From Volutella citrinella (lineage: Eukaryota > Ascomycota > Sordariomycetes > Hypocreales > Nectriaceae), in the NCBI GenBank assembly GCA_034401135.1, contig JAWZSP010000005.1, positions 1,488,001-1,552,000 on the forward strand: a DNA stretch of 64,000 bases, read 5' to 3'. Within the stretch, counting starts at the first letter, position 1, and each line of letters opens with the position of its first letter. A model generated the notes under the pieces. That model was not told the DNA's origin and did no database searches. It saw only the letters and a list, made by a program, of their open reading frames with translations. Position numbers and translations under genes: made by a program. Shown in pieces: positions 3,001 through 56,301 of this stretch.

Positions 3001-3612
3001 CCGCTCTTCAAACTCCTTGAACTTGCGGATCAGTCTCTGGACGGGCCGGGCTTCTCGCTCAATGCCCATTTGGTAGACCTCCTCTGCCTGTGCCCACCGC
3101 GATGCGCCCTCGAGCCATTCGGCGTATTCCTCGTAGTACAACGCGAGGCCTTCGCCGATGGCCTGCCGCGAGAGAAACACATATGTCTCCCGCGGGGCGT
3201 CTGAAAACCAGTGGATGTAGTGAATCCAGAGCTTGAGGTATCTCGGGTCATTCTTGTACTGCGCCGATCCTATAAATGCCTTTGTTGCCCTCTCGAGAAG
3301 AGTGTGAAGCTGTGACTGAGGCGTCGCTTGGGCTGAAGGATAGGCATCCAAGGTCCAGCGCACATATCGGTCGAAAATATCCAGGGGATCATCCGACTCG
3401 GCCAGGTTCTCGACCTCGGCTTCGTATTCGGCGCGGATGCAGTCATTGACGTTTCTTGTGTCTGAAGGCGTAGGTGTTGCCAGCTTGTGGAGCGGGGATG
3501 GAGAGTATAGTTGGGCAAGCTTCTTGGCCGATCGGCCTCCAGGCAGAGACTGGATGTTCTCTTTCTGGCCTTCGATCAGATCGAAGTCGATGAGGTCGTT
3601 TGAGGGCGCCAT
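1..3612 (-). CDS. BUB1: Spindle-checkpoint kinase BUB1 with Mad3 features (3' end cut by window edge)
   Basis: Exons 3612-2632, 2544-2145 and 2081-<1, with introns 2631-2545 (GTAAG...TTGCAG) and 2144-2082. About 1154 residues are visible; only the last few tens are missing. The N-terminus has a KEN box at residues 17-19, then a Mad3/BUB1 region I TPR domain (about 60-210). A second KEN lies at 295-297, between two MAIF[SK]D motifs (261-266 and 321-326). Exon 2 carries the Mad3/BUB1 region II core ELSFEEIMA. Near residue 666 is an MTPIAERTE segment typical of BUB1. The C-terminal kinase domain (from about 825) has GAGAFAPVYLV, ALKMESPP, the catalytic loop HGDLKVDN and DFGRG. By family knowledge, it acts at unattached kinetochores, phosphorylates H2A and supports Cdc20 inhibition. 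The start codon at 3612 has a good context (CAAGATGG). Confidence 0.95.
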
Positions 3613-8942: not shown

Positions 8943-9474
8943 CTTGACGATAGTCCAAGGAAATCTCTGGAAAGGAGTGGTATCGGGCAGGAGCACTGTA
9001 ATGCCTACCTCGGGTGTTGCGACGGCGTGGGGCGAAAAAGTCGTGGCTGTTTGAGGATGGTTACTTCCAAGGGCACAAAGTTGTCGACGACGACCAGTGG
9101 GTGGGTTTCTGCGCCGACTTTCACACACCGATCAGAAAATTTGTGGTTGCTTATCGGGCCTTATCTATTGGTCAGCCCAGTGCCGCTGCGCCGTCGCGTC
9201 ATGGAATTGGATCCTGCCAGGGAAGTACCTCTGTACGTGAGCCTCAGGGAGCGGGTCGACTACGCATTACCAGCCAATTGCTAGAACTTCATGCGCATTA
9301 CAACCTCTAGCTACCGTCCACTAAAGCCAACCACCTGCCTCGACGTCGACACGCGCGCCGCCGCCGCCGCCTCCTCCCAATCTCTCTACCCCCGACTACA
9401 TCTCGAGAACATTGATCCAACCCAAACCTCCAACAACCTTGTCTTCTTGTCAGCAGACATCATGTGTTGCAAAG
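8943..9474. other. Divergent promoter between PNO1 and MDM31
   Basis: This 532 bp gap separates two genes read outward. No recognised operator was found. The MDM31 side ends in a CT-rich leader (about 9360-9460), with a six-codon upstream frame just before its start. Confidence 0.6.
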
Positions 9475-9482
9475 ATGGCTAA
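9462..9482 (+). promoter_or_regulatory. Six-codon uORF overlapping the MDM31 start codon
   Basis: An ATG at 9462 opens a frame of six codons (MCCKDG) that stops at 9480-9482, inside the second codon of MDM31 (ATG at 9475). A ribosome using it would pass over the main ATG and stop five bases after it. This layout can lower translation or require re-initiation. It matters only if transcription starts upstream of 9462, which cannot be seen here. Confidence 0.5.
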
Positions 9483-11748
9483 AGGCGTCCCCTCCTTTCT
9501 GCTTAGGCGCCGCCCCGGGATAGCCGTCATCTCTTCCAACATCTCTCCAGCTTTGCAACTTATTGCATCTAGGACCGAACAGCGGCTTATCACTTCGAAC
9601 ATCGCTACATCCCGTACGGGCCAGCTTGTACAGAGCCAGTTTCTTTGGCCGTTGTGTGGCGGAAGAGAAAGACAGTGGATTGGTGTCACGCCCTCGGCAC
9701 AGTCACGCCCATGGCTCACATCTGCGGAATCACCGCTCAAACAACGAACTGCCTTTTCAATATCTGGAAATCCTGTGGGCCAATTCTCTAGAGCATGGAC
9801 ATATCAGCAAAGATTCTACAGCAAAAATGCCAAGGATGCCAAATGCGCTTGCGGCAAAGACTTGCCAGAGACTCACCACCCAGGCAAGACATCAAAAGAA
9901 ATACATGACGCAAGACCATTAGATTCCAAAAACGCTCGGGATACAACGCCAACGCCTGATTCTCCCTCTATCAAGCGAAATGCATCGGACTCCGACTCGG
10001 AGTCATTTTCCTCCTCGGTTACGAAATACTTACACCTTCCCCACCTCCCGAAGATGCCGCACCGTCCAACGAAGGAGGAGCTGCTGGCCGCGGCCACTGG
10101 ATTCTGGCAGAGGATGAAGGTTCGGTTCAAGTGGATGTCCATCAGGAGCATGCGGCCATGGAACGCTGATGAATGGGGGGCTTTCGTCTCCTGGTTCATG
10201 CTGGGCCACATCGTCTGGGTTCTGCTTGGCACGACAACCTTCTTCTCCCTGGTCATTTTCTCCATCAACACCGTATTTGCACAGGGTAAGTTAACTTGTT
10301 TGACTTTCATGAATATAAAACCATTGCTTCGGATGCACTAACAATAAATAGAAACCCTCGCCAAGTGGGTTGGCGACTACTTGACGAAATCCGCAGGCAT
10401 TACTGTCATCTTCGAGTCTGCCATCGTTCCAAAGTGGGGCGACGGTGTCATTTCCTTTCGGAATGTCTTTGTATCTCGTCGCCCCGGGCAGGCCAAGTCT
10501 TTCGTAAGCAAGGGATCATCAGACGATGCCGCCGTTGCTGCAGCTGGGCGAAAGACCCCAACCGACGATGCCTCTGTTGACGAAGACGATGGGAATTACA
10601 CCCAATTCGATGTGACTATTGCCACAGTCAACGTCACGCTCTCATTCCTCAATTGGTGGAATAGCAAGGGACTACTCAAGGACGTCGAAGTCAAGGGTGT
10701 GCGAGGCGTCATCGATCGCACTTCGGTTGTTTGGTCACAGACCCAGGTCGACCCTCTCTCATACCGTCACACGCACAATCCCGGCGATTTCGAAATTGAG
10801 AAGTTCAAAATGGAAGATCTCTTGCTCACAATACACCAGCCGGGAGGCTTTCGACCCTTCTCAGTCAGCATATTCTCATGCGAATTGCCGCAGCTCCGGA
10901 AGCAGTGGCTATTTTACGACTTCCTCTCCGCGAACCACATGTCAGGTTCCTTTGACGGCTCTCTATTTACCATCCACCCTCGGCAGGTTCATGGAGTCGT
11001 TCCCAACTATGATCAAGTTCCCTCTCTGAGCCTTGGGGATCCCAAAGCGTGGAAAAAGTTCAGCAGGATTCGCATTGATGGGCTAAAGATCGACCACCTC
11101 AATCGTGGAGTTGACGGCCCCTTTGGTTGGATCTACGAGGGCAATGTCGATATTGTGACCGACATTATGTTCCCCGCTGACTCGGATGAGGGAATCACCA
11201 AGGTCATGGCCGATTTCTATGACCAGCTGGAGGACATCGTCATAGCCAACAAGCATCGATTTCTGCGGAATGTAACGGACAACACGCCCGCCCTCCTTAC
11301 CTCGGGACACCTTTCAGACTCATCTGGCCAATCCTTCGATAACGACGAGCCTACCCAGGGTGAGACTTCTGATGACGACCGCCGTTATCTCATCATGGAT
11401 CTTCGCATCCACTTCAACGACGTCAAGGCTGCCGTCCCCATTTTCACCAAGGACATGTCCTATGTGAACCAAGCGCTGGTTCGCCCAATCGTAGCGTACA
11501 TCAACGCCAAGAAGACATACATCCCAATTAACTGTCGCATCGTGAAGCGTGCAAGCGATTTCGACGGGAGCTGGTCAGTCTTCGATTGTGGTTTGATGAA
11601 CGACATGTCTGCCGAGACGTACGAAGCCGTGGCAAAGGATGTCGAGGACCAACAAAGCCGAGTTCGCCGATTCAAGAAGGTTGGCTTTTGGACTCTCTCC
11701 TTGGCCGTCCATGCCCTCTTCATGGGTATGGCGGGCAATGTGGTCTGA
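9475..11748 (+). CDS. MDM31: Mitochondrial inner-membrane protein of the Mdm31/Mdm32 family
   Basis: Exons 9475-10285 and 10352-11748 (66 bp intron GTAAGT...CACTAAC...ATAG) give 735 residues. The first ~115 residues are rich in R, S, T and A without acidic stretches until 'ERQ', fitting a mitochondrial presequence. A hydrophobic segment at about 237-268 (FVSWFMLGHIVWVLLG...) and a short C-terminal one (about 716-735) are membrane-spanning candidates. Between them lie conserved family blocks: WVGDYLTKSAGITVIFESAI, NWWNSKGLLKDVEVKGVRG and WIYEGNVDIVTDIMFP. In yeast these proteins sit in the inner membrane and support mitochondrial shape, distribution and cardiolipin-linked functions. The chosen start has the context AAGATGG; an upstream TTG extension is not credible. 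Confidence 0.93.
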
Positions 11749-30755: not shown

Positions 30756-33700
30756 ATGGCCGCGGCCGAGGTTTTGGCGTTCACCGACAACTGGATAGGA
30801 AGCGAATATGGCTGGCCAACGACCCGGCCTTCGCCGACTTGGTGGGATGAGCGCTCGCTGCAGGCGCAGCTGGGCTTGATCGCCCATGCATGGATGCTCG
30901 ATTGCAGCACATTCCAGGTACGTGGTTCATGTGCTTCTTTGCGCTGCCCTGTTTCTTGCACCTGCATCGCCGTTTGGTCGATGCGACGCAGCTTAATGGC
31001 TGGAGGTTCTGGCGGGTGGCGTCTAGCCGTCGGCCCGTTGGACCACGAGTGCGAGAGGAGGGAGGGGGGGAATGCTTGGTGCCACCCAACCCGCCTGGCA
31101 GCTTAGAACCTTAATCCCGAAGCTTGGTTATCCATCTGACATGGACTCTGACCATAGAACCTACGAGCCTCCGATTCACATCAAAATGCCACGAGGAAGC
31201 CTTTAACGGTCCCCGAAATCTACCCGAGACGATCTCGCCACCTCCCATCGCACCCCGAATCTTGCGCGACTCCAGACTCGGTAATGGACCCGAATCACAA
31301 TGACAGCCACGCCCAGAGACGTCTTCCAACACAGCTGACTTCCGCCCCGCCCCCTCCCTCCCGCGATTCGACGCAACGCCGCCATCGACGGACGGATGGG
31401 CTCCTGAGCGACCCTGCCTCAGACCTTTCTGTGGATTTCAATTCACAAGAGGGCTTTTACAGCGCAGCCAAGAAGAAGAAGCAGCCGGCGAAGCATCTTC
31501 CCCCGCCTCCCCCGGCCCCACCGCCTCCACCGGCCGACGACGGCAACGCCAATGGCGGCAGCGGCGCTGGCGGAGACCAGGACACTGGCAATGATGCCGG
31601 TGGAGCCGGTGATGGTAATGGCGATGGCGACAAGGACAAAGGCAGTCTCGACGATGCGTGGGGCAGCTTCTCCACGGCCAAGTCAAAGAAGAAGACTGGG
31701 GGACTGCCTGAAATCCCCACTAATGACTTTGGCGCCGATTCATTCCACGAGATCAAACTAGGCGACGATTCGGCAGGTAAGCTGGATCTGGGGCTTGGGC
31801 CTCCAGAATCGAAAGGCGGTTTTGGTTCTTGGGGGGCAAAATGGAGTACAGGTGGTAGTGGATGGGATTGGCCTGGAGGAGGAGGGGGTGGTGGTGGTGG
31901 AGGGCCTGACACCACGGTAGCCGCCGCCGAGACGAAGAGCGGCGGTGATGACAACCCCTGGGGTGCAAAGGGCGGGAAGACAAAGAAGACCGGCAAAACC
32001 AGCATGTCGTTCGGCGCCTTCGATGAAACAGAAGAATTGTCTTCTGAGGAACCGAAGAAAGCAGAAAAGTCTGACCCCTGGGGCTTCTCTGCCGTCAAGA
32101 AGGACACCAAGAAGGGCATGTGGGGTGCCGACAATGAGGAAGAAAAGAAAGACTCGATTGGCGAGAGCGACCCCTGGGGCTTTGGATCATCGTCGAAAAA
32201 GAAGAATGTACCCGATGCGGCGCCGGATGCTCCAACGGACACCGATTGGCTAGGTTCTGGACCGCCGAAAGGTAAAGATCTGAAAGACAAAATTAAGAGC
32301 TGAATGGAACGTACTAATGGTTTGTTAGCGAAGAAAGCGACGGATGACATATGGGATACGTGGGGGATATCGAAAAAAGACCGCACGAAGAAGAAGGGCA
32401 TCATTGACGAGTTCGACCACCCAGAACCTGAACCTGCAGCCCAAGCCCCCCCGCCAGACGATTTGTGGGGAGGTTGGTCGTCGTCAAAGAAGGACAAAAA
32501 GTCGAAGAAGCCGTGGGGCGAACCCGAAACAGTTCCCGAGCCAGCGCCAGATCCGCCAGAGAGTAAGACGGAAGATGATTTTTGGACCACGTTTGGCACC
32601 TCAAACCCAAACAAGAAAATTGAGCCAGTGGCCGAGCCAGTCGTGGAGGAGAAACCCGCCAGCGACGGCTGGTCGTCCTGGGGTCTCCCCAAGAAAGGTA
32701 CGGAAACAATCCCGCGACTCGTGAAAGATCCCAATGTTAACAATGGAGAAGTAACAGCCGAAGATGGCTGGGGTTTGTGGGGCAAGACGAAGAAGGCTGC
32801 CGCTGATTTACTACAGTTAGATGACCCTCCTCCAGCCGTACCAGATCCTGTTGATGCTGGCGGCGACGATTTTTTTAGTAGCTGGACTGCAGGTAAGAAG
32901 GGCAAGACCAATGCTCAAGTCACCGAAGAACCGAATGACGATTTCTGGGGTTCTGTCGGGAAGAAAGGGACCAACGGTGAGATGACCCAACCTGACGATG
33001 CGTTGGATCTTGTGGATGGTAAAGTTCGAGGCAATGATGGCTGGGGCTGGACTTCATGTAACCCAACGGAAAAGTCTGCCTCTCAAGTTGGCGCCTTGAC
33101 TGACCTCCCTACTCCAGCGCCAAACCCCCTTATATTGACTGTTACTGAACACCGAGAGGCAGATGGACCAGACGTCGCCGAGGCAGAAGCACAAGCCGCC
33201 AAGGAGGCCGAAGCGCAAGCCGCCAAGGAAGCCGAAGAAAGGGCCACGAGAGAGGCGGAAGAAGCCGAGGCAGCTGCTGAGGAGGCTGAATTGGCCACCT
33301 TGACAACGAAGAAGCTCAGGAAAGGGAGGCTTCTTAAGAAAGAAACCGACCGGTTCAACATCCTCACCGAGAATTCTCGAAAGCGAGCAGAGGCTCGTGC
33401 TGTTCGCGAAGCTGAGGAGCAAGCCGCCAAGGAAGCCAAGGAAGCCGAGGAGGCAGCGGCGGCAGCAGCAGCAGCTGAAGAGGCCGCAGCAAAAGCTGCA
33501 GAAGAACAAGAGGCCGCTGCGGCCCTGGACAAGGAAAACGCAGAGATTGCTGAGGAAGAAGCTGAAATCGCCACCTTGACAGCGAAGAAGGCTAGAAGGG
33601 GCAAGCTTCTGAAGAAGGAGACCGAGCGGTTGAACCTCCTTACCGAAAAGGCTACTAAGAGGGCCGAAGAACAAGCTGCTAAAGATGCTGAGGAGCAGGC

Positions 33701-36700
33701 GGCAAAGGAAGCTGAAGAAGCCGCCGCCGCCGAGGTCGCTGCAGTAGAAGCTGCCGCCGAGGCCGCCACTTCCGAAGAAGCCGTTGCCGCAGAGGCTGCC
33801 GCCGCCGAAGAAGCTGCTGCTGAAGAGGCTGCTGCCGCACAAGCCGCCGAGATCGCCAAGGAGGAGGAAGAGCTAGCGGCTTTGACAGCTAAGAAAGCTA
33901 AGAAGGGCAAGCTTCTGAGAAAGGAAACCGAACGATTCAACATTCTGAGCGACAAGGCCAAGAAGCGAGCAGAAGAACAAGCTGCCAAGGAAGCTGAGGA
34001 ACAAGCCGCCAAAGAGGCAGCTGAAGCTGCCGCCGCCGAGGAGGCTGCCGCCGCCGAAGCTGCTGCAGCTGCCGAAGCCGAAGCCGCTGCCCAAGCCGCT
34101 GCCCAAGCCGCTGCCGAAGCCGAAGCCGCTGCCCAGGAAGCCGCCGCCGAAGCTGAAGCCGCTGCCCGAGACGCCGCCGAGGCCGAAGAAGCTGCAGCCA
34201 TCGCCCAAGAAGAGGAGGAACTTGAGCAGCTCAAGGCTAAAAGGGCGAAGAAGGGCAAGTTGGTCAAGAAGGACATGGACAGGCTCACTGTGTTGGTTGG
34301 CAACAAGGTCAAACGGGCCCAAGCCAAAGCTGCCAAGGAGGCAGAGGAGGCCGCAGCAAAGCAAGCTGAGGAGGCTGCTGCTAAAGAGGCTGAGGAAGCC
34401 GCAGCTCGTGAAGCAGAAGAGGCAGCAGCCCGCGAGGCTGAACAAGCTGCTGCCGCTGAAGCAGCTGCCGCCGAGGCTCTTGAAATAGCCAAGGAGGAGG
34501 AGGAGCTTGCTTCTCTAACCGCCAAGAAGGCCAAGAAAGGCAAGCTGGTTAAGAGGGATGCTGACCGCTTCAACCTATTAACCAGCAACGCTACCAAACG
34601 CGCCAAGAAAGCGGCCAGAGAAGCTGAAGACGCAGCGGCAGCTGAGGCAGCCGAGGCCGAAGCCGTCCCTGCCGAGGGAGAACTGGCTGATGTCGTTGCC
34701 GAGGAGGCAGCGGCGGAACCAGGTGAAAGTCCGGCAGACGAGCCTGTCGCAGAACCGAGTGAGGACAATGGCGAGGCCGAGGCCGCAGCTATCGCTGAAG
34801 AGGAAGCCGAACTGGCTGCGCTCGAGGCCAAGAAAACAAGGAAGGGCAAACTTGGCCGGAAGGACTTGGAGAGATACAATGTCCTCACCGAGAAAGCCGC
34901 CGAACGCGCGATCAAGGAAGCCGAAGAACAGGCTGCCAGGGAAGCTGAGGCCACTACCGATGAACCACCAGTTGAAGATACCCCTGAGGAACCTGCAGTT
35001 GATGTTGATGCTGAAGTCGATGCTGAAGTCGAGGCTGAAGTCGAGGCTGAAGTCGAGGCTGAAGTCAAGGCTAATGCTGAGGCTGAGGCTGATGCCGATG
35101 CTGATGCAGCAGAGGCAGCAGCACGCGAAGCAGCAGAGGCAGAGGCTCTTATTGCAGCCGAGGAGGAGGAGGAGGAGCTAGCGACTCTGACTGCTAAGAA
35201 GGTAAAGAGAGGAAAACTCAAGGGCAAAGATGCAGATCGGTTCCTTCTCCTGACGGACAATGCTGCAAAGCGAGCCGAGAAGGCTGCCGAGGCACAAGCC
35301 GCTAAAGAAGCTGAGGAAGCAGCCGCCAGGGAGGCCGAGGAACAAGCAGCGAAAGAGGCTGAAGAGGCCGCTGCTCGTGAGGCTGCTGAAGCTGAAGCTG
35401 CTGAGATTGCAGTAGAAGAAGCCGAACTAACTTCCCTTGGTGCAAAGAAAGCCAAGAAGGGGAAGCTCAAGGGCAAGGACCTTGAACGGTTTACTCAACT
35501 GACACACAAGGCTGCTGAAAGGGCGAAGGCTGCCGAGGAAAAAGCAGCAAAGGAAGCTGAGGAAGCTGTCACCCCTGAGGTTGTAGAACCCGAACCTGAA
35601 CAACCAGAGCCAGAGGAACCTCCTGCCGAGGAAGAGCCAATTCCCGCTGAAGAAGAGCCTGCTCCTGCCGAAGACCCTCCAGAGGAGCCACCTGTTGATG
35701 AGGATGCTGCTATTGACGAAGCAGCAGAGGCCGAGAAGGCCGCCCTTATTGCAGAGGAAGAACAAGAGCTAGCCGACCTGACTGCAAAGAAGGCTAGAAA
35801 AGGCAAACTCGGGAGGAAGGATACGGAGCGAATGAACATTCTCACTGAAAACGCAGCTGCCCGAGCAGAGGAAGCTGTTGCTGCTCAGGCAGCCGCTGAG
35901 GCAGCGGAGGCCGCTGCTGCGGAGGCCGCCGCTGCTGAAGAAGCTGCCGCGAAAGAGGCCGCCGATGCCGAAGAAGCTGCTGCAAAAGAGGCCGCTGAAG
36001 CGGAGGCTGCTGCTGCTATTGCTGCTGAAGATGAAGAATTGGCATCTCTAGCTGCGAAGAAGGAGAGGCGTGGTAAATTGACCAAGAAGGACACTGACCG
36101 CTTTAACCTCCTTTCCGAAAAGGCGGCCAAAAGAGCAGAACAAGCTGCAGAGGAGCAGGCTGCTAAGGAGGCCGAAGAAGCTGCTGCTAAAGAAGCTGAG
36201 GAGGCAGCTGCCCAAGAGGCTCTTGACGCAGCTGCGGCTGAAGAAGCTGCTGCAAAGGAAGCCGAGGAAGCTGAAAAGGCAGCACTGATTGCCGAGGAGG
36301 AAGCTGAACTGGCAGCCTTAGCAGCAAAGAAGGCAAAGAAGGGCAAGCTCAAGGGCAAAGACGCAGACAGGTTTCAGCTCCTAACTGACAATGCAGCTAA
36401 ACGAGCTGAGGACCAGGCCGCTGCTGAAGCTGAAGCCATTTTAGTAGAGGAAGCAGAAGCAGCGCCTGAACCTGAACCTGAAGAGACTGGCCCTGAAGAG
36501 GAAGATCCGCCCGCAGAGGAACCCGCGGATGATCCTGTCAACGAGGAGGTGGAGGAAGCTGATCAAGAAGCCGAAGAGCAAGCAGCCAAAGAGGCGGCTG
36601 AGGCTGAAGCGGCAGCTCAAATCGCGGAGGAAGAGCAAGAGCTGGCAGCACTGTTGGCCAAGAAAGAGCGAAAAGGCAAGCTTGGTCGTAAGGATACAGA

Positions 36701-39700
36701 GAAACTTAACATCCTGACTGAGAACGCTGAGAAGCGCGCCCAGGAGCAGGCAGCAGCTAACGAAGCTGAGGAAGCTGCTGCTAGGGAGGCAGAGGAAGCT
36801 GCAGCAAAGGAAGCTGAGGAAGCTGCAGCAGCCGCTGCTGAAGCCGAGGAACTCGCAGCTAAGGAGGCCGAGGAGGCTGCAGCCGCAGAGGCTATTGCTC
36901 TAATCGAGGAAGAGGAAGCCGAACTTGCATCGTTGACTGCTAAGAAGGAGAAGAGAGGAAGGCTTAAGGGTAAAGATGCTGACAGGTTCCTTCTTCTCAG
37001 CGAGAACTCAGCGAAAAGAGCCGAGGAGAAAGCTGTAAAGGAGGCTGAAGAGGCTGCTGCTGAGGAGGCCGCTGCTCAAGAAGCGGCCGAGGCTGCTGAA
37101 GCCGCCGCCGCGGCTGAGGCAGAGGAGGCTGCCATAAAGCAGGCAGCTGAGGCAGAAGAGGCCGCCGCGCTTATTCAGGAGGAAGAGGCAGAACTTGCTG
37201 CACTGACCGCTAAGAAGGCTAAACGGGGCAAGCTCAAGGGCAAAGATGCCGACAGGTTCCTTGTTCTCAGCGATAATGCCGCAAGACGTGCCGAGGAGGA
37301 GGCTGCAAAAGAGGCTGAGGCCCAGGCAGCAGAAGAGCCCGCAGAAGAGCCTGAAGAAGATCCAGCGGCTGACTTTGACGATGGCGATGACGACGACGAC
37401 GCCGAATTTCAAGACGCGGAGGAGGATATTTCCCAGCTCGAAGAAGTCGATGAGATTGCTGACGCCGAGGCCGCTGCAGCCGCCGAGGCAGAGGAGGCGG
37501 CTGCAAAGGAGGCTGCTGAAGCTGAGGCTGCTGCTGCTGCTATTCAGGAAGAAGAGGAAGAGCTCGCCGCACTCAATGCAAAGAAAGAGCGCAAAGGAAA
37601 GCTTGGCCGAAAGGATACAGAACGGTTCAATGTTCTGAAAGAGAATGCTGAGAAGCGAGCCGAGACACAAGCTGCCAAGGAAGCCGAAGAACAGGCTGCT
37701 AAAGAGGCCGAAGAGGCTGCCGCCGCTGCCGCCGCTGCCGAGGAGGAGGCCGCAAGGGAAGCTGAAGAGGCCGCCGCTGCCGCCGCCGCTGCTGCTGAGG
37801 AAGAGGCCGCAAGAGAAGCTGCAGAGGCAGAAGCCGCCGCGCGGATTCAGGAGGAAGAGGAAGAGCTCGCGACACTCACTGCGAAGAAAGAAAGGAGGGG
37901 CAAGTTGGGCCGTAAGGATACTGAAAGGTTCAATGCCCTGTCCGAGAGTGCCGACCAGCGAGCTGCAGAAAAAGCTGCCAAGGAGGCCGAGGAACAAGCT
38001 GCAGCGGAAGCTGAGGAGGAGGCAGCGAGAGAGGCAGAAGAAGCTGCCGCGGCTGCCTTGGCCGCCGAAGAAGCCGCCGCGGCAGAAGCTGCAGAGGCTG
38101 CTGCTGCCGCAATCGCCCAGGAAGAAGCAGAGGAGCTCGCCGTACTTGCCGCGAAGAAGGCCAGGAAGGGCAAATTGGGCCGCAAGGATACAGAAAGATT
38201 CAATGTTCTGACTGACAATGCGGCCAAGCGTGCCGAGGAGCTTGCTGCTAGAGAAGCTGCCGCCGAGCCTGAGGATGAGCCTGAAGATGAGCCTGAAGAT
38301 GAGCCTGAGGACGCTGATGACGATGGTGACGAGGGGGAGGAAGAAGCCGAGCCTGAACTCTCGCCTGAAGAAATCGAGGAGATTCTAAAGGCGGGTGAAA
38401 AGGCGCCTGAAGCGAAAGGTGATGAAGAAGCCGACGAAGAGGCTGGCGAGGAGGCTGATGAGGAGGCTGGCGAGGAGGCTGATGAGGAGGCTGATGAGGA
38501 GGCTGATGAGGAGGCTGATGAGGAGGCTGAAGAGGAGGATGCAGAAGCCGATGTGGAAGCTGATGCTGACGACGCTGATGCTGCCGATGAGGAGGAGGAC
38601 GCACCTGAGGAGGCTTCGGCAGATGTTGAGGCGGAGGAGGTGAAGGAAGTGGAGGAGGAGGAGGAGGACAAGGAGCCAGCTGAGGATGCTGAGGTCGAGG
38701 CCGAGGCAGAAGAGGCTCCGAAGGAGGCTGAAGCACCAGCTGCCGAAGATGAAATCATCGAGGTTGTCGATATGTCTCCGAAGAAGCCCAAGAAGAGAAA
38801 GGGCAAGTCGAGGTCTGCAAACGATGCGCCAGCTCCACCGCCGGTCCCTGATCCACCGACCATGGACGAACCTTTGACGCCGCCACCTGAGCCTCGGTCA
38901 TCCAGAAAGGAACGACCCAAGATCAGTAGGGAGGGCAGTTCGTGGGGTACCTGGACTGCCTCAGCTCCCCGAGAAGAAAAAAAGAGATCATCCAAGTCCA
39001 AGTCGAGCAAGACGCCCAAGCGGGAAAAGGAAGACAAAGTGTCCTCCAAAGGCTCGTCATCCGACAAAGTCGAGAAAACTCCTGCGCGCTCGCGAGTTGC
39101 TGGCCTCTTCAGCACCCCGCCAATTACCAGGTCGGCATCAACACGTGAGAAAAGAGGCGGCGGGAGCAGCAAACGACGCCACTCAAGCGCAGCTGAGGGC
39201 CTGGCATCGCCAGCTCCCGAAGACATGCCTGACAAGGCTGCCAAGATATTCGGCGTCGAGGAGTCGGGAGATCGAAGGAGATCACGGAAGCCTCGGTCAC
39301 GAGAGGATGAAGACATTGTCATGGTTGGTGCCAACGGTGAAGCTGCCGAAGCCGCACCTGAGAGGGCTCGCCGTCGGCGAGCTCGGCGGTCCCCTGAAGA
39401 AGATATTGTAATGGTTGACTCGGGCGGCCCTTCTGACACGCCGCTGAAGCCAAGCTCGTCCAGTGCGAAGAAGTCGGGCTTCTCTAGCCTGTTCACTGGC
39501 CTGATGACACCAAAATCAGAACGACCAGACCCTCTCAGGCGACGAAGTACATACGCAACGACTGATGACGAAGCCCGAGGAGCAGACATGACGGATCCCG
39601 ACCGCGAGGCGCGTCACGCTGCGCGACGGGCAAGGCGTGCCGAACGAGGAGCTGCTGGCCAAGGCTATGAGGATGACGAGACTCGACGTGCCAGGGACGA

Positions 39701-40469
39701 AGCCAGACGAGAGAGGCACAGGCAGCGCGAAGGGGAGGATGATGCCCGCAGACAAGCAGACAGGGAGGCACGACGGGCAGAGCGACGAGCCGCGCGGCAG
39801 CGAGAGGAGGATGAACGGCGCGATGAAGAGGAGCGAGAGGCGCGCCGAGCTGAACGCCGCCGGATCCGCAAGGAGAAGGAGGAGGCTGCGGCGATGGCTG
39901 CGGCTCCCGAAGTCGAAGACGAGGAGGCTCGCCGGGCAGCCCGGCGTGAACGCCGCCGATCCCGCCAAGTCGACGGTGGCGAGGAGGATGAAGAAGAGCG
40001 TCGTCGTCGACGCGAGGCTCGAAGAGCGGCGCGGGCGGCCGAGGCCGAGGGTGAGGACAGCGGCCGTTACAGAAGGCGTCACACAGAACCCTCCATGGAT
40101 GACTACGGGCAATCACGCCGCTCACGACGCCGCGACGAAGGCCGCGACGAGCCCCGGGAAGAGACACGAGGCCCCGCGTGGCCTCACTCGGGCACGTCAT
40201 CCTGGGTCAACCAGGTATCGGATGCGCCACCGCCTCCCGACGAGGGTGGGCAGACTGAGGAGGAGCGGCGGGCCCGTCGCCGGGCCGCCTATGGCGACGG
40301 AACACCCGATGACACGGACGATCAACGGCGACGTCGGGCGAGGCGCGAGGAGCGGGAGCGAGAGCGGCGCTCCGAAGGCAGTGATGAGCGCTACTATCAA
40401 AACCGTCGCAGCTCGACATTTGTGGACTCAGCGCCGAAAACCAGCTGGTGGAAGAAGCTTGCTGGATGA
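30756..40469 (+). CDS. Giant Ala/Glu/Lys-rich repeat protein with WG motifs, function unknown
   Basis: Proposed exons are 30756-30917, 31158-32271 and 32329-40469, giving about 3138 residues. The second intron (57 bp, GTAAAG...TACTAATG...TTAG) is well supported. The first (240 bp, GTACGT...CTGAC...CATAG) joins in phase but is less sure; ATG 31284 is the alternative start. Residues 1-54 are W-rich and look folded. Residues ~150-700 carry about 14 WG/W motifs set in acidic and KK-rich context. Residues ~740-2400 hold 17 copies of a helical-hairpin repeat with a conserved KGKL turn. These are followed by an acidic block (2400-2560), a basic stretch KKPKKRKGK (about 2578), S/P-rich spacers, a long R/E-rich helix (2850-3005) and the end WWKKLAG. 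No catalytic motif, signal peptide or membrane segment is seen. A scaffold or tether is a guess; I do not recognise the family. Confidence 0.75.
33280..38250 (+). repeat. 17-copy protein-coding repeat array
   Basis: Seventeen units start near 33280, 33550, 33855, 34203, 34488, 34793, 35153, 35408, 35751, 36020, 36291, 36624, 36902, 37171, 37541, 37844 and 38111. Each codes a core of the form EEEELAxLxAKK-xxKGKL-xxKDxxRFNxLTxxAxKRAE, followed by an Ala/Glu linker (EAEEAAAKEAEEAAA type) of varying length. Unit spacing is 255-370 bp. Cores are conserved at the protein level but diverged in DNA, so the expansion is old. Some linkers carry newer 12-bp tandem repeats (35010-35070 and 38440-38530). 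Confidence 0.9.
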
Positions 40470-41629: not shown

Positions 41630-44523
41630 ATGGCCGCGCCTGGCAAGTCCACGGGCGGCGGCGGCTGGGGCTCGTTCCTCTCCCAGGCTGCCGCCGGCCT
41701 CGAATCGCGACTCGACAATATGCTCTACGACGATGACCCTTCTCAAGGCCAGCGACAGAAGCAGAAGTCGCAGAAGAAGCCGCAGGAGAAGCCGCAGGAG
41801 AAGCAGGACGAGAAGACGGGCCCTGCATCGACAACGACGACCAAGCAGCAGCCTGCGCCAACCGCAGCTCCGACTGCCTCGAGCAAACCCTCCACCGGCA
41901 ATCGCGCAAACGATCGTCTCCAGGCCCGACTGGCCAAAGCTGTCGCCGCTCGAAATGCGGGCGGAGCCGCCTCGCCCTCGCCTCGCAGCTCTGTCGACCA
42001 GCCCAGCCCGACATCAACTGCCCGAGCTTCGCTTGACAAGGAAGTCAAGGATAAGGAGACCAAAGATGCTTCTGTCGGCGCCGAGCTCCCCGCCGGAGCT
42101 TCCAAGGAGTCCTCTGCAGCGAAAGATTCTTCAAAGGATGGCCCGGTCGAGAAAGACACCACAATGGACGCACCAACAGCGTCTACTGACGAGACGGGCT
42201 CCAGCAAAGACGGCAAGGCTGATGCTGATGATACCAAAAACGACGGCACCAAGACCAGCGACACCCCAGAGGGAGTAACAGTTCCGGACAGCTCTTCTCC
42301 CAAGGAAACCGATAAGCAGGCTAGCGAGACCACCCCCGACACCGCGATCGATTCGACGCCTCCATTACCGATAACCACCTCGACCCCCGACCCAGCTCCA
42401 AGGAAGGACGCTGACAGCGAAGATCCCGTAACGGCGGAGCCTCTACCAAAAGACCCCCCCCCTCCACAAGACACTGATCCAAGCCCCTCACCTGCATTGC
42501 CTCAACCTGATGCCCAGCCGGTGAGCCAGGACCCCGAGGGCCACAGGGCCCAACACCAAGAGGAGATACACGAGTACATGGAGCGCATAGATTCCCTCCA
42601 AGCCAAGCTGCAATATCTCTCCAAGGCAGCTGCAGACTCAGCGAAGAAAGCGGCTGCTTCAGCACCGGGGGGAAGCACCGAGCGGAAAATGGCAGAGAAG
42701 GATGAGAAGATTGCTCTCCTCCTGGAGGAAGGTCGTAAGCTGTCCAACTCGGAGCAGAAATTTCGAACAGGCATCCGTAAACTACGTGCCCAGCTGGCGG
42801 AGAGCGAGAAGCAGCTTGGCGAGGCTAAAAAGGAAACTGAACGAGTTGCGTCCGAGGCCAGCACCTTACGCGGCCGCCTGGATGGCCGCGAGGCACAAGA
42901 GAAGCAGGCCTCCGAGGTGCGCAAGGCGAGCGCAATTCTGCAAAAGGAGATTGATAATCTGAAGGCTGAGAGTGCAGCCAAGGACGAGACACTTCGCCGG
43001 AGAGAGAAGGAGTTGAAGGAGAAGGCAGAAAAGGCAGAGCTTGCCAGTGCCGAAGCGCACAAGAAAGCAATTGCGGCAGAACAACAGCGACAGAAGGAGC
43101 TCGAAGGCACCATCGCCAACCTGCGATCGGACAAGGAATCGCTGTCAGACAAGGCAAGGCTGGATGCCCTTGAGTGGCAGGAGAAGCTGGACCGCGCGGT
43201 CGAGCGTGGACGAACCGTGGAGGAGGAACTCAAGCTTGAGCTGCGAGCAGCCGAGACGAAGCTCGAGGCCATACGCGCAGCTGCCGAGGAGGCCACGTCT
43301 GGCTCATCAGGAGAGTCGCAAGTGAAGCTAATTCGGCAAATTGAGACGCTGCAGTCCCAGTATGCTTCCGCGAGCGACAATTGGCAGGGAATCGAGGCCT
43401 CCCTACTTGCCAAGGTGTCTATTCTCGAGAAGGAGAGGGATGAAGCTCAGCGACGAGAATCGGAAATGCGGAAGAAGGCCCGCGATTCGGTAAGTACCAA
43501 GACATTGATTGCCCTAGACATACGCAGCAGTAGGTTCTATTTCGAACCATCGCTTACGCTCCACGATAGGCCAGTCGCTGCAGGCGTCTCGAGGATGAGC
43601 TGCAAGAGGCCACCACAACACTGGGCACTGCTCAGCAAGAGCTTGACATCTGCCGCGAGCAGCTCGCCACCCTGCGTACGCAGTCCAAGTCGACCGAAAC
43701 GGCCCTGGAACAGGCCCGTGCGGACCTTGAGAAGCAGCAGAGGCAGGTAAGCCGAGACTTCACCGTTGAGGCGGACCGGCGGCAGTGGGCGGACGACGTC
43801 TCCGGCGCTATGTCCGGCAAGGGCCAGAGCAGGCCAGAGTCGCCCATGATGTCAGTCTCTCGCACCTTCAGCTCCGACCTAATGGGACTCAACGTGCCGG
43901 GACGAACCCCGCGACGATCCCCCACGCCTGGAAGCATCCCGGACACCGGTGCCGAGGGCATGTTCTTCGGCCGCCGCCTCTCCAGTCAGCCCCCGATCCG
44001 GCCAAGCATCCTCTCCTCGACGGGATCTGCTATCCCGCCGCCGCCCATCTCCCCATTCGAGCCTCTGACCGAGTCGCCGCGAGCTGCGTCGCCCACGGTG
44101 CCCGATCGCGACGATGAGCTCGATGACGGCGGCCCGTCCTCGCCCCGCCACGTGGCGCAGGACATGATTTCGGTATCTACGGTGGGTGCCGGGCCGTCGG
44201 TGCAGCTCGTGGAACGGATGAGCGCTGCGATCCGGCGGCTCGAGGCTGAGAAGGTGGCTGCCAAGGAGGAGATGGCTCGGGTGTGCGGCCAGCGGGACGA
44301 GGCCCGGGCCGACATTGTCGGCCTCATGAAGGACTTGGAGGGGGCCAAGTCGGCGACCACCCGGGTCGCGGAGCTGGAGAAGGAAATGACGGAGATCAAT
44401 GCGAGATACCAGACGACTTTGGAGATGATGGGCGAGAAGAGCGAGCTCGTCGACGAGCTCAAGGCAGATGTGCAGGATATGAAAGAGATGTACCGCGAGC
44501 TTGTGGAGCGAACTGTCAAATGA
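41630..44523 (+). CDS. Golgin with C-terminal TMF/TATA-binding-type domain (Sgm1-like)
   Basis: Exons 41630-43489 and 43570-44523 (80 bp intron, phase 0) give 937 residues. Without this splice the frame runs into a stop at 43750; the splice restores the heptad pattern. The first ~20 residues (GGGGWGSFLSQAAAGLESRLDNML) are a short amphipathic segment, given here only as the motif GWGSFLSQ. A disordered S/T/P/K-rich part (20-290) follows, then a long coiled coil (about 300-720). After a P/S-rich linker, residues 820-937 form the coiled-coil TMF_TATA_bd-type domain (ERMSAAIRRLEAEK, ELKADVQDMKEMYRELVE). By family knowledge, TMF1/Sgm1 golgins bind Rab6/Ypt6 at the Golgi and tether vesicles. The name rests on domain layout, not on a search. 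Confidence 0.85.
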
Positions 44524-48318: not shown

Positions 48319-50727
48319 TTATACACCGATACCCAAGGCTTTTAGATCCACATCGTCGCGGAGAGCCATCTTCACCTCGTCGTCTGCGATGGCCAGTCGC
48401 AGTTTGCTTGAACGTTCGGCCCGCTGCGCCTCGAGGTTGATGAGGCCGGCAGCTACCAGGTCAAGAGCAGCCGTATGGACGTGTCCGGGCCGCGACATTG
48501 GGCGCTGTCCACTCGTCTGCGTCCCCTTGAGGCTGCCTGCCAGTACCTGGGCCATACCCGGCAAGGCCGGCGGCGCACGGAGGTAAGCTCGGTGGATCTC
48601 ATCGAGTGTCTCGCCAAACGTGGTCTCTGCGAGACCAGTTCGCCGCATCCGAAGCAACAACGCTGCCATGAGCAGCTTCGACAATAGTGGCAGGCCACGG
48701 AGGTGTTGTTGAATTGGATTAGTCGTAGCCTCGTTGATGGCCTTTTTAATTGTACCAATGGTGACACGGCCTGCTCGACCCAGACCCTGGGGGTCCTTCT
48801 TGCTGGGCGTCGCTGGGTCGCCTGGCACATCTGCTTCGGCAAGCTCAACTGCGCGGCGACAGATATCAAGAGCTCTGCGTGCGTCTCCGCTGACCGCCGC
48901 AACTTTTCGACTAGCGAATTGAATAGCATCCGGATCTACGATATTACCCGGCACGCCCTCCAAACGTGACTGAATAATCTTCATGAGCTGCTCGTGGTTA
49001 TACCCGGGAAAAGTGATTCGAGTGAGGCCTGTTTGCGCTGTCAGAACCATTCTCATCCAGTGCAACACGCCAAGTGAATACATACCGAGTCGACTGCTGA
49101 TTTTGTTACTCAGCGTTCTTTCCGGAAGATCCATTGTGTTGGCCACGGCGAGGACAATCAGGCGGCTGTGGCGCAGTGTCGGCCAGTTGAAAAAATTATA
49201 CATGACCGCTTGGTTTTTGGTGACCAGTTGGTCAAGTTCGTCCATGAGAACAACACATGGAATTCTTCGCGGGCTGGGGTTACTGAATTCACGCTCCAGG
49301 AGATCCAAAGCCTGGGCAGGGCTGGCACGTTGCCCCTTTAGCGCTTCCCAGAGAAGGGTGTACGACTGATGCGGATCCGTGATCTTCATGCCATTGATCT
49401 CGACAAAGATGAAATCGTCGAGTTCATCTGACCCCACTGCTTCTTCGAGTCGTGATATCACCTCTCGAACCGTCGCAGTTTTGCCCGTTCCTGGTGTACC
49501 AGATATGTAAATGCAGTTGCCGGTTCCGTCCGAGATGGCGGCCTCCAAGTGAGAATAAACCAAAGAAAACTCCCCTTCTCGGCATGGGAGGCTAGTCGGC
49601 ACTGAGGAAACATGAAGGCGGTTTCTGGCGATTTGAAAGGGCGACGAGTCAACGTGACTTGGTGACAGCGTCCTCGTGGCCAGGGGGGTGAACTCTAGCC
49701 GTTTGCTGGTGCTCCTAGGGAAACGTCAAAACAGGCAACGGATGATGTTGGTTTGTCAGTACACACCTTTTTGAACGGGATCCCGGTTCCGTTCGGCGTG
49801 ATTGAGGTGTGGCTGCTGCTCTACGACCAGTCTTTGTCGGTGTTTGCGGGGGGTGGTAGGCCGCATCCTGGGGCTCCGGGCTCCGGGCCTTTCGACGACG
49901 AGTTGCCTTGGTGCCTTCCTTGACCATTTCTATGAGGCTGTAAACATCGTCTCTCCCATGGTAGATTTCCTCCCAAATAAACTCGTCGGTGTATGTAGCC
50001 GTGCGGGTATTGCAGGCACGCCTGCAGACAAATGTCTTTCCCAAATCAGGAGATTGTCGAGGAATGCGGCCAGTCGGGTAGGCGGACAGGAAGGCATCGA
50101 GCGAGGTAACCTTAGCCTTGCCGTTAATCGATGCTAAGGGGTTGACATCCCATGACGGTGAGATGTACAGCTCGTTCTGTAGACTTGTCAGCTGCTGTGC
50201 CCAGAAGCGGCGAGAAATATCGGAATGATACAGACCCAGTGATAGTCATTGCGTTTCTTGTCCTTATTTCGAATTTCCTTCTCGGTTGAAAACCACATAA
50301 AGTTGGCCGCTTTCTCGCCGTCTCCATCGTCTTCGACAAACTCGCAGATAATGGCCACCCAGGCCTCGTTAGATCCATCGGCTTTAAGAAGCACACAATC
50401 ACCAATGAAGCATTCGAACTGGCCGATTCTTGCGCCCACGATTTTATCGCCCGTCACTTTTCGTCTCTTCCGTTCGTTCTGAGCTTCATCGTCTCGATCG
50501 GTAGCTGGGGTATTGTAGATCCACTCCCAGGGAATATCGTCGTCCCCAAGCTCATCGTCAGAGTCATCCCTAGATACGCCGGGTAAGGATCTTTGCGCTC
50601 GTCGGATGGGCCCAGCGGCCTTCACTTCTGAAGAAATGGGCGCCATTAAGACGTTTGCGCATGCGGTGGCATACAAGAGGTTTCGACGCGACCGGGAGAC
50701 GCGACGAACAGAGCTTCTAGAACCCAT
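48319..50727 (-). CDS. ORC1: Origin recognition complex subunit 1
   Basis: Exons 50727-50236, 50176-49767 and 49714-48319 give 765 residues. Introns are 59 bp (unusual GTCTGT donor) and 52 bp. The N-terminal half carries a BAH domain (about 75-230; IGQFECFIGDCVLLK, AWVAIICEFVED, NELYISPSWD). A basic linker (KATRRRKARS...TKTGRRAA) follows. The AAA+ domain has Walker A GTPGTGKT (about 373-380), Walker B VVLMDELDQL (about 456) and sensor-1 VLAVANTMDLPER, then a winged-helix C-terminus. ORC1 binds nucleosomes and origins and provides the main ATPase of ORC in replication licensing. The start at 50727 is the first ATG; a second ATG 27 codons in (MAPISSEV) is a possible true start. Confidence 0.95.
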
Positions 50728-54212: not shown

Positions 54213-56301
54213 TCACAGCTTCGCCAACAACCCAGCGACGAAACCTGGGAGGGCATCGACGGAGACGTTCTCTTTGACCGAAAGTCTGCGGCATTGCACC
54301 TCACAAGTCCCATTCTGCTTCCAGGATTTTCCCATAATCACCACGACCGGGTAGCCTACCATGTCGGCATCCCGCATCTTCCATCCGAAGGCTTGCTTGC
54401 GATCGTCAAGAACCACGTCCAAGGGAGGCTCCGAGCCGTGTGAGGCTGCAATTTTATCATATAGCTCAGCTGCCTCCTCCCCCAAGCCAGGGGTGGGGAT
54501 GATGGCGACCTCGAATGGCGCAATTGCCCTTGGCCAGTTCAACCCACGTTCGTCGGCCAAGATCTCAGCAACAGCTCCAAATATCCGCGAGACCCCCACG
54601 CCGTGGCATCCCATCTGCACAGGCACGCGGCTACCTGGCGTCAAGCCCTCTTTGGATGCCTCTGGGAGTTCCGTCTGCGGAAGCGACACGTACACCTCCA
54701 AGGGCTCAGAGTACCGAGTACCGAGGTGGAAAGTGTGACCAACTTCCAGGGCACGGTGGACTTTCAGAGCCCCCTCTTCGCATCGGGGACACCCATCGCC
54801 GTCTGCAATTCGGACCAAGTTCAGGGGCATTCCATCTTTATCCTTCTCGACAAACAATTGTTCAGCTTCGTACTGCTGTAGCCCCTTGGGAAGGAGACCG
54901 AGGTCTGCATTGAACGTTGTGGAAGCTGAAGTGAGTCTCGAGTCGACCACATTGACGACCTTGGCCTTGCCTCCTTGCAGGAGCTGTTCCCAGAACGGCA
55001 GGGCACTGTCAATACTTGTGTCGAGCTCTGGAACAGCCGATTTGAGAGCATGGAGATTCGGTCCCTCCCCAGCTGGCCCATCCTGGGTTTGCGGGTACCA
55101 TGCATTTATCAGGGTTTGCCTATCCTTCGAAACACCGCGCCATACGCGGATCCCGTCATTTGGCGGCAGACTCCCAGCAGTCTGGGGGGGGGGGCGGGCA
55201 GTGGCCACCTCATCATTTGCTGTGTAACCACATGAACCGCAGCTTACCACTGTGTCCTCGCCAACAGCGCTGGGCATGTGATACTCGTGGCTGAGATTGC
55301 CGCCCATGTCTCCGGAGCTTGCTTCCGCGATGAGATATGGCAGTTTGAGCTCGGAGAAGAAGCATTTGTATGCTGCTGAGATTTCCCGATACGTCTCAAT
55401 AGCGGCCCCGACAGTCAGGTCAAAGGTGTACAGATCCTTCATTAGAAATTCGCGTGAACGTAGCAAGCCATGACGAGGGCGACGTTCATCTCTGTACTTG
55501 CGTGCTGCCAACCATTAGTACAAAGATGTGTCCAACAAGGGCGGGAGTAGTCGCACTAATTTGGTAGAGCCGGATGGGAAGTTCCTTGTACGACTTGAGT
55601 GTGTTTGCTACCAATGTGGTGATCTCCTCTTCGTGGGTGGGGGACAGAATAAGAGGCACCTCTTTGCGGTCCTCGAGGCGGAAGAGCTTTCGAAATTAGC
55701 ATAGCCGTTCTGACACTGGGCACTTGCAGGCGTACCTCCGAGGCCACCAAGTCAAGCCGGCCAGTCTTCCTCCACAGCTCCTGAGACGAAATGGTGGATA
55801 GCGAAAGGCGAGATGCACCTATTAAGGAAGACGAGTAAGGTTAGTGGCGAGGAATAGTGTGACAGTTGGGATGAGGCACGAACCCGCAGCCTGCATGTGC
55901 TTATCCAGTAGCTTCTCTATCTTGTCTTGCACTCGCAGACCCAATGGAAGGAATTGGAAAATTCCAGAGTGTGCCTGGTGGATCAGAGTTAGGGTTATCC
56001 CCACAGCCTTGTTGGATATCACGAACCTGGCGCAGGAAGCCGGCGCGAACGAGCTTGCCGTGTCCAGCTGGATCGGCTAGTTAGCATTCATTTTCCCTGA
56101 GCATTTGGAGCTCTTAGGCCTGGACGTACACTCATCGTCGCTGGCAGTGATGCCTCCGGTGGGAACCCAAGTCGAGGACAAGGTAGATCTGGCCAATGCG
56201 GTTCTCGTAGCTGCTGAACTCGTGAGGGCTCGAAGCTGTGGTGGGATCACGCTTGTCGACGCAACGGCGCCAATCGCCCGCGACAGCCTTGGTCGCAGCA
56301 T
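54213..56301 (-). CDS. Prolyl-tRNA synthetase, mitochondrial (class II)
   Basis: Exons 56301-56130, 56067-56027, 55974-55884, 55818-55736, 55686-55557 and 55504-54213 give 602 residues. Introns are 62, 52, 65, 49 and 52 bp. The N-terminus (MLRPRLSRAIGAVAST...) is a basic mitochondrial presequence. Motif 1 surrounds FQFLPLGLRVQDKIE. TxE-type ILSPTHEEE follows. Motif 2 is [27 protein letters not shown], split here as [10 protein letters not shown] and LLRSREF. Motif 3 is MGCHGVGVSRI. An anticodon-binding domain ends the protein (FEVAIIPTPG...). The enzyme attaches proline to tRNA-Pro for organelle translation (AIM10 type). A run of 11 C in the coding strand (55194-55184) makes the frame sensitive to sequencing error, but the frame is open on both sides. 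Confidence 0.95.

Follow-up and report, generated by a model that had tools for sequence, protein, structure and literature searches.

The middle of a giant protein of Volutella citrinella carries 17 predicted helical hairpins, and the same hairpin unit was found in the Leashin of the same genome. Leashin tethers Woronin bodies, organelles that plug wounds, to the pores between fungal cells. Judged from sequence, this sharing is new here, and the giant belongs to an unnamed protein family of filamentous ascomycetes. We tentatively propose that the giant is a docking scaffold, which would gather Leashin by like-with-like hairpin pairing, either at the septal pore or at the cell cortex.

The coding gene lies on the + strand at 30756..40469 of the 64,000-nucleotide stretch of DNA analysed (the window). 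Its spliced model (exons 30756-30917, 31158-32271 and 32329-40469) gives a product of exactly 3138 aa, 53% of it repeat region, in line with the earlier note's ~3138 residues, half of them repeat. Exon 1 (30756..30917, +) encodes the conserved N-terminus MAAAEVLAF...LGLIAHAW and, like the beginning of exon 2, matched the N-termini of homologues, e.g., P0012. Intron 2 (32272-32328, 57 bases), which removes an in-frame TGA, rests on splice signals and on comparison with homologues rather than on RNA. It falls inside a low-complexity Trp/Lys-rich segment (31446..33257, +) with repeated DDxWGxxGxxKKxKK-like motifs, where residues 151-735 hold 24 Trp. After the repeat there is a segment very acidic in composition (38250..38732, +; Glu 42%, Asp 16%), followed by the C-terminal part (38733..40466, +), conserved in the comparison with homologues and mostly of low complexity. 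Its short motifs include STPPITRSASTREKR (39111-39155, +), WPHSGTSSWV (40179-40208, +) and the terminal TSWWKKLAG (40440-40466, +).

The neighbouring downstream frame (41630-43750) bears TMF_DNA_bd (TMF1/Sgm1 golgin) and is a separate gene in the window. The homologue P0003 is annotated as a single protein including TMF domains. This gene model probably joins two neighbouring genes, and would thus be evidence of conserved gene order, not of common function.

All 17 cores claimed in the earlier note, with their fixed pattern, were recovered in one open frame (33270-38234). They lie on the + strand at 33270..33389 (core 1), 33546..33665 (core 2), 33852..33971 (core 3), 34200..34319 (core 4), 34485..34604 (core 5), 34791..34910 (core 6), 35157..35276 (core 7), 35406..35525 (core 8), 35748..35867 (core 9), 36018..36137 (core 10), 36288..36407 (core 11), 36621..36740 (core 12), 36903..37022 (core 13), 37173..37292 (core 14), 37542..37661 (core 15), 37845..37964 (core 16) and 38115..38234 (core 17). 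The spacing from start to start is 249-369 bp, against the 255-370 bp first given. Positions with Glu, Leu, Lys, Gly and Arg are constant across all 17 units, and the strict pattern EL..L..KK..[KR]G[KR]L fits 16 of them; core 2, an EIATLTAKK variant, reads EIATL instead. Between the cores there are linkers of 43 to 83 residues. Proline is absent from 11 of the 16 linkers, and the other five (linker 5, 34605..34790, +, and the similar linkers 6, 8, 11 and 14) contain proline as well as acidic runs, a composition that suggests disorder.

AlphaFold2 predicted a helical hairpin for a single unit (37530-37694, core 15), with helices at residues 2-22 and 27-54 (pLDDT 88, pTM 0.60), the KGKL turn joining the two. 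For three units (36597..37331, +, cores 12-14) helices were predicted at residues 2-26, 31-120, 126-210 and 216-244, with a pLDDT of 91 and a pTM of only 0.40, so that the packing of the units is without a confident prediction. The two proline-free linkers within this stretch were modelled as continuous helix, so that the helices run for 90 and 85 residues from one turn to the next. The linkers vary in length, as stated before, and are more than filler. The amphipathicity of core helix 2 exceeded that of shuffled sequences (z 5.5); that of core helix 1 did not (z -0.2). Together with the selection pattern described below, the models support a folded hairpin.

The cores differ at the DNA level and agree at the protein level. 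Mean amino-acid identity over the 136 core pairs was 0.63, with 0.12 predicted from composition alone. Codon positions 1, 2 and 3 agreed at 0.73, 0.78 and 0.35 (random for position 3, 0.26), and synonymous sites were saturated (pS 0.84, pN 0.24). This combination of 63% identity and saturated synonymous sites indicates that the cores are old protein units under selection at the protein level. Recent tandem duplication was ruled out, none of the 136 pairs having a pS <0.5. A profile from the 17 cores found 147 units in the window protein and its 23 homologues (24 sequences), 11 of the homologues having been picked partly by words in common with the repeat region. The same profile found no unit among 24 reversed and 120 block-shuffled sequences.

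These results bear on the explanation that the repeat is Ala/Glu/Lys low complexity, in which a motif recurs with neither fold nor function. The composition of the repeat region is indeed extreme (Ala 34%, Glu 24%), and with the seed profile the HMMER composition filter lowered the number of passing homologues from 20 to 18 of 23. The codon-level selection and the empty reversed and shuffled controls rule out low complexity alone, as the earlier note had argued. The predicted hairpin and its conservation across orders and two gene families speak against it as well, and we regard this explanation as close to refuted.

The statement that the unit belongs to no named family was borne out in Pfam, NCBIfam and PDB. 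In Pfam, the 2721-codon ORF gave no family above the curated cut-off, and the 17 units gave just three families (E 0.044-0.094, one unit each). Neither the Spectrin repeat nor any other Pfam repeat family exceeded its cut-off, and PTHB1_pf and other candidates were dropped for the same reason. NCBIfam had no match to the hairpin unit. By sequence, PDB gave one row at E 0.1, none with the 17-unit profile and two with a wider profile (E 1.5 and 8.4). By fold, no PDB match clearly exceeded generic helical pairs, and those to D-63 (1skv) and the endophilin BAR were too weak for use. Among bacterial, archaeal and viral contigs there was no confirmed relative, using patterns built from the window units, which distant relatives could escape. 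Open-licence papers yielded no description of the unit or the giant, and nothing useful on rigid helical spacers. The long continuous helices and hairpin turns of the model resemble those of spectrin-like and coiled-coil tethers, and the giant may work like a spaced rod, as elongated helical scaffolds do. It differs from these tethers in having no Pfam match above cut-off and none above chance in PDB, in its modelled helices of 90 and 85 residues and in the variable length of its linkers.

The 23 homologues of the giant occur in Sordariomycetes, in Podosphaera (Leotiomycetes) and in Cercospora (Dothideomycetes). Hairpins were found in 20 of them, 1-23 per protein, and were undetected in the other three. 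An earlier, partly out-of-register profile had detected 11 of the 23 with the composition filter on. The weakest homologues were P0022 (E 2.9e-9) and P0023 (E 2.7e-4). The searches, for giants as for Leashins, scored only the candidates with most words in common. Ten giants were counted as Diaporthales, six by name and four by their placement in a tree drawn without three of the 24 rows (P0003, P0006, P0013).

Searches of the 45-Mb genome found the hairpin in at least two genes other than that of the giant, a 7469-aa ORF on contig C1 and a frame on contig C9, the latter without a known tie to septa. The hairpin of the 7469-aa ORF (C1:3716835-3717002, minus strand) was recovered at 64% identity (E 1.6e-10), and in a second search at 75% (E 3.9e-15). 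The last 454 residues of this ORF gave 288 homologues, many of the 120 listed being named involucrin repeat protein. The start points of LahC288 and LahC219 from Aspergillus fumigatus, taken from the primer table of PMC5345055, lie 289 and 221 residues from the ORF end. The homologues and these distances, which place the conserved C-terminal domain correctly, identify the ORF as Leashin at the sequence level.

The hairpin was detected in 11 of the 120 retrieved Leashins with widened profiles and in seven with the seed profile, the own-genome copy being additional; in the other 109 no hairpin was detected. These counts are partial (120 of 288 matches, candidates of ~1833-5833 aa) and biased towards window-like copies, because the profiles started from the window units and took in homologues only later. 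Reversed Leashins gave no match with two widened profiles and one weak match (E 0.043) with the seed profile. Hairpin number ranged from one to five, in several lineages. All eight Leashins of a Diaporthales clade (four by name, four by tree placement) had two each, and two of the five Nectriaceae rows, P0024 (3413 aa) and P0025 (2865 aa), both short models, had none.

The Leashin copies of the own genome and of Diaporthales resemble the giants of the same lineage. Among giant cores, a short-turn form was found in 73 of 103 from Diaporthales and in 7 of 86 others; among Leashin cores, it was found in 16 of 16 from Diaporthales and in 0 of 8 others. Among the top-12 matches of the Diaporthales Leashin cores, 182 of 192 were in Diaporthales giants (165 of 192 when the turn was masked), against a background of 103 of 189. 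No clean lineage match was seen for the Leashin cores of Fusarium and P0092. The matching could reflect past sequence exchange between the genes instead of co-evolution.

Such exchange is part of another explanation, about as likely as docking, in which the hairpin serves purely as a structural spacer. Rods and hairpins would set length and stiffness, and the unit would have been exchanged because both proteins are long, repeat-rich and acidic, with no contact between them. A copy number of 1 to 23 among the homologues is expected for a length-setting element, and the accessible text of PMC2690989 describes the central region of Leashin as an acidic, poorly conserved, tether-like linker. The own Leashin core is also closer to the own giant cores (52-77%) than to the two Leashin cores from Fusarium (45% and 41%), which looks like exchange. 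However, agreement between the own Leashin core and the 17 giant cores at third codon positions was only 0.17-0.45 (closest, core 2, 0.38), which rules out recent copying into Leashin; any exchange would be old, both copies having since been kept at the protein level. Nor would a pure spacer need to fix Glu, Leu, Lys, Gly and Arg throughout the 17 units when its linkers vary in length, and the genome searches found the hairpin in three genes only, a lower bound.

It is unlikely, though it would account for one unit in three otherwise dissimilar genes, that the hairpins bind a common third partner (for instance, a membrane, a protein of the cytoskeleton or a receptor at the septum) that would co-locate the giant, Leashin and the C9 product. 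The turn region of the hairpin is basic and set between acidic stretches, as such binding would also explain, but no candidate partner is known.

The giant is not itself Leashin. Both are very long, repeat-rich proteins of filamentous ascomycetes, Leashin being known as Lah, LAH-1/LAH-2 or 'involucrin repeat protein', but they are separate genes. The C-terminal 561 aa of the giant matched only the giant itself in the genome, and no entry appeared both among the 23 giants and among the 120 listed Leashins. The septum-targeting C-terminal domain of Leashin, with its membrane span (LahC288), is not present in the giant, whose N-terminus looks by eye unlike that of Leashin, where the Woronin-body (WSC) binding region lies. 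The Neurospora Leashin repeats described in the accessible text of PMC2690989, LPVDEDLDLLPALPES and PEEVELPASP, are different sequences. The septal pore proteins SPA (Neurospora) and SPP (Aspergillus oryzae) share with the giant long low-complexity regions and a filamentous-ascomycete distribution, but were defined by observed septal location, whereas the giant is known here from sequence alone; a hairpin chain is not described among them in the part of PMC10023807 consulted.

The docking scaffold proposed above would have low-complexity ends with short conserved motifs, and a middle of alpha-helical Ala/Glu rods linked by the 17 helical hairpins, with five flexible Pro/acidic breaks between. 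The hairpins would be docking units pairing with hairpins of the same kind; by binding those of Leashin, the giant would cluster this protein at septal pores or at the cortex of the cell. The location at septa began as a guess in the earlier note, as part of an elongated scaffold, and the presence of the unit in Leashin lends it indirect support. Contact between giant and Leashin would not be universal, since the hairpin was undetected in 109 of 120 Leashins and 3 of 23 giants.

In a broader and rather speculative version, the hairpin would be a like-with-like septal docking module and the giant a multivalent hub (up to 23 hairpins in homologues), clustering Leashin and setting Woronin-body tethering. 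The hairpins of both proteins would co-change within a lineage to fit each other, and could unfold singly under tension as a force buffer for the tether, which is described as elastic in the accessible text of PMC2690989.

The giant family has no entry in the searched libraries, although it is spread over Sordariomycetes, Podosphaera and Cercospora. Which further components belong to the tether that links Woronin bodies to the septal pore is not settled in the literature, as far as the accessible text of PMC2690989 goes. A predicted folded unit common to Leashin and the giant would offer a concrete, testable partner and contact surface.

The giant gene was modelled on the plus strand with three exons (30756-30917, 31158-32271 and 32329-40469), encoding 3138 aa, with splice sites inferred from sequence. 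A 2721-codon ORF encloses the last exon. Intron 2 (57 bases) keeps the frame, and a TGA at 32301-32303 is taken out by its splicing. The model is supported by the N-terminus (MAAAEVLAF..., KPLxxP), which was found again in homologues, e.g., P0012. Acidic-Trp-Lys motifs (DDxWGxxGxxKKxKK-like) were repeated across the N-terminal part (31446-33257), with similar ones in homologues.

Directly downstream lies a TMF1/Sgm1 golgin gene (41630-43750). The Ophiocordyceps polyrhachis-furcata homologue P0003 has the giant and TMF1/Sgm1 annotated as one protein, with a UniRef name derived from the TMF part. This public record (L249_7375) is probably a fusion of two adjoining genes, and because it joins both, their order is probably conserved. 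Ordinary neighbours include a Mad3/BUB1 region (2623-3612), an MDM31/32 mitochondrial protein (9412-11748), an ORC1/Cdc6-like ATPase (48319-49602) and a class II tRNA synthetase (54213-55511).

The giant carries 17 hairpin cores (33270-38234, plus strand), and the repeat region covers 53% of the protein, in agreement with the earlier note, which described a 17-copy repeat filling about half of ~3138 residues. The irregular spacing it reported (255-370 bp) was of the right order, the computed start-to-start range being 249-369 bp. Residues shared by all 17 cores are, in helix 1, two Glu, one Leu and one Lys; in the turn, Gly and Leu; and in helix 2, Leu and Arg-Ala. Over 136 pairs, amino-acid identity averaged 0.63 (0.45-0.82), and agreement at codon positions 1, 2 and 3 was 0.73, 0.78 and 0.35. 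pS was 0.836 and pN 0.242, with no pair (0/136) having a pS <0.5. The codon-position agreement, the pS/pN values and the lack of recent pairs argue that the copies are old and maintained by protein-level selection. At E < 0.01, the 17-core profile detected 147 units in the giant and 23 fungal homologues; 24 reversed and 120 block-shuffled control sequences yielded no hit. Codon-level selection and empty controls bear out the earlier view that the conserved turn and fixed positions are not simple low complexity.

A folded hairpin, also proposed earlier, was predicted by AlphaFold2. The single unit, modelled with the other 16 units as alignment, gave two helices (2-22 and 27-54) joined by a turn (pLDDT 88.0, pTM 0.60). 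For the adjacent cores 12-14, aligned with 14 other overlapping three-unit stretches of the giant, the predicted helix (2-26, 31-120, 126-210 and 216-244) was broken only at the three turns (pLDDT 91.2, pTM 0.40), suggesting helical rods. A high pLDDT is unsurprising in Ala/Glu helices; the turn and the single-unit pTM are the informative parts of these models. Amphipathicity exceeded that of shuffles in helix 2 (z 5.5) and in proline-free linkers (z 6.4), and not in helix 1 (z -0.2). The linkers are 46% Ala and 30% Glu, and 11/16 lack proline. The other five (5, 6, 8, 11 and 14) have proline and acidic runs, splitting the chain into cores 1-5, 6, 7-8, 9-11, 12-14 and 15-17.

Two overlapping searches (13 + 21) gave the 23 homologues of the giant, including Diaporthe, Cytospora, Gnomoniopsis, Ophiocordyceps, Hypoxylon, Nemania, Durotheca, Monosporascus, Podosphaera, Cercospora and Sclerophora. 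C-terminal motifs were common to 13 aligned rows, and WPHSG was found in 15/24 family rows, some being incomplete models. At E < 0.01, 20/23 homologues had 1-23 hairpins each; the three exceptions, P0021 (Podosphaera), P0022 (Cercospora) and P0023 (Sclerophora), had no hairpin. With the HMMER composition filter on, hairpins were detected in 18/23 (seed profile) or 19/23 (widened profile). The unit had no match above chance in the profile libraries and solved structures searched, so that, as noted earlier, no named family was found for it. Fold searches returned generic helical pairs only, and no description of the unit was found in the openly licensed papers searched.

Hairpins also occur elsewhere in the genome. 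A single-core search recovered the full set of 17 copies in the window and, beyond them, a strong copy on contig C1 and two weak copies on C9. One more C9 copy came from two further searches, which revealed no additional gene; all these counts are lower bounds. The C1 copy (residues 4891-4944; 67.1 bits with the seed profile) lies in a single uninterrupted 7469-codon frame (C1:3709266-3731672, minus strand) with Pro-Glu tandem arrays and many Lys-rich clusters, e.g., SKKEKKKKKKKAK. We identify this frame as Leashin from its sequence, because a search with its last 454 aa matched 288 proteins and, among the 120 listed, many bear the name involucrin repeat protein; the start points of Aspergillus fumigatus LahC288 and LahC219 (primer table of PMC5345055) map 289 and 221 residues before its end; and the MDREQRQ motif is identical. 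Those 454 residues are 85% identical to Thelonectria olida, and group with it and Fusarium in trees, which makes a Nectriaceae origin of the genome probable. LahC288 binds the septal pore rim, according to PMC5345055. In PMC2690989, Leashin is presented as the tether of Woronin bodies, and its centre is said to be poorly conserved; the C1 hairpin falls within that centre. The C9 copies, three and diverged, are in a 332-codon frame (C9:1959073-1960071, minus strand), with RRWL, GRWL and RRWF turns instead of KGKL. Frames beside it gave no Pfam match above cut-off; those on the minus strand may be further exons of this gene. This gene has no known septal tie, and may point to a wider use of the unit.

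Among 120 Leashins retrieved of the 288 matches, 11 had hairpins with the widened profiles and seven with the seed profile; reversed Leashins gave no match with two widened profiles and one weak match with the seed profile. Fusarium P0026 and P0027 had one hairpin each, P0092 five, and P0071, P0073, P0074, P0077, P0078, P0086, P0088 and P0091 two each. The latter eight form an exclusive clade among the 120 (support 1.0; 100/100 among 34 rows), whose named members, three Cytospora and one Gnomoniopsis, are Diaporthales. In 8/8 the units are 129-172 residues apart and 2503-3171 residues from the C-terminus.

In two lineages, Leashin hairpins match those of the giants by lineage. A turn shorter by about four residues was found in 73/103 Diaporthales giant cores versus 7/86 others, and in 16/16 Diaporthales Leashin cores versus 0/8 others. 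The top 12 giant cores per Diaporthales Leashin core were from Diaporthales in 182/192 cases (165/192 with the turn masked), against a background of 103/189 giant cores. For the Leashin core of the window's own genome, 12/12 best matches were in the window's giant (17/189 cores), with the turn kept or masked. Its identity was 52-77% to those cores, and 45% and 41% to Fusarium Leashin cores, with third-codon-position agreement of 0.17-0.45 to the 17 giant cores (core 2, the most similar, at 0.38). Leashin cores from Fusarium and P0092 lacked a clean match in a giant set without named Fusarium. The within-lineage match and saturated synonymous sites would fit co-evolution as well as an ancient exchange with later constraint, and do not separate the two.

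As a long helical scaffold, the giant is of a familiar general kind; what is new, to our knowledge, is the unit and the fact that Leashin carries it as well. The hairpins may dock with one another, and through them the giant would contact Leashin, which would place it at the septum.
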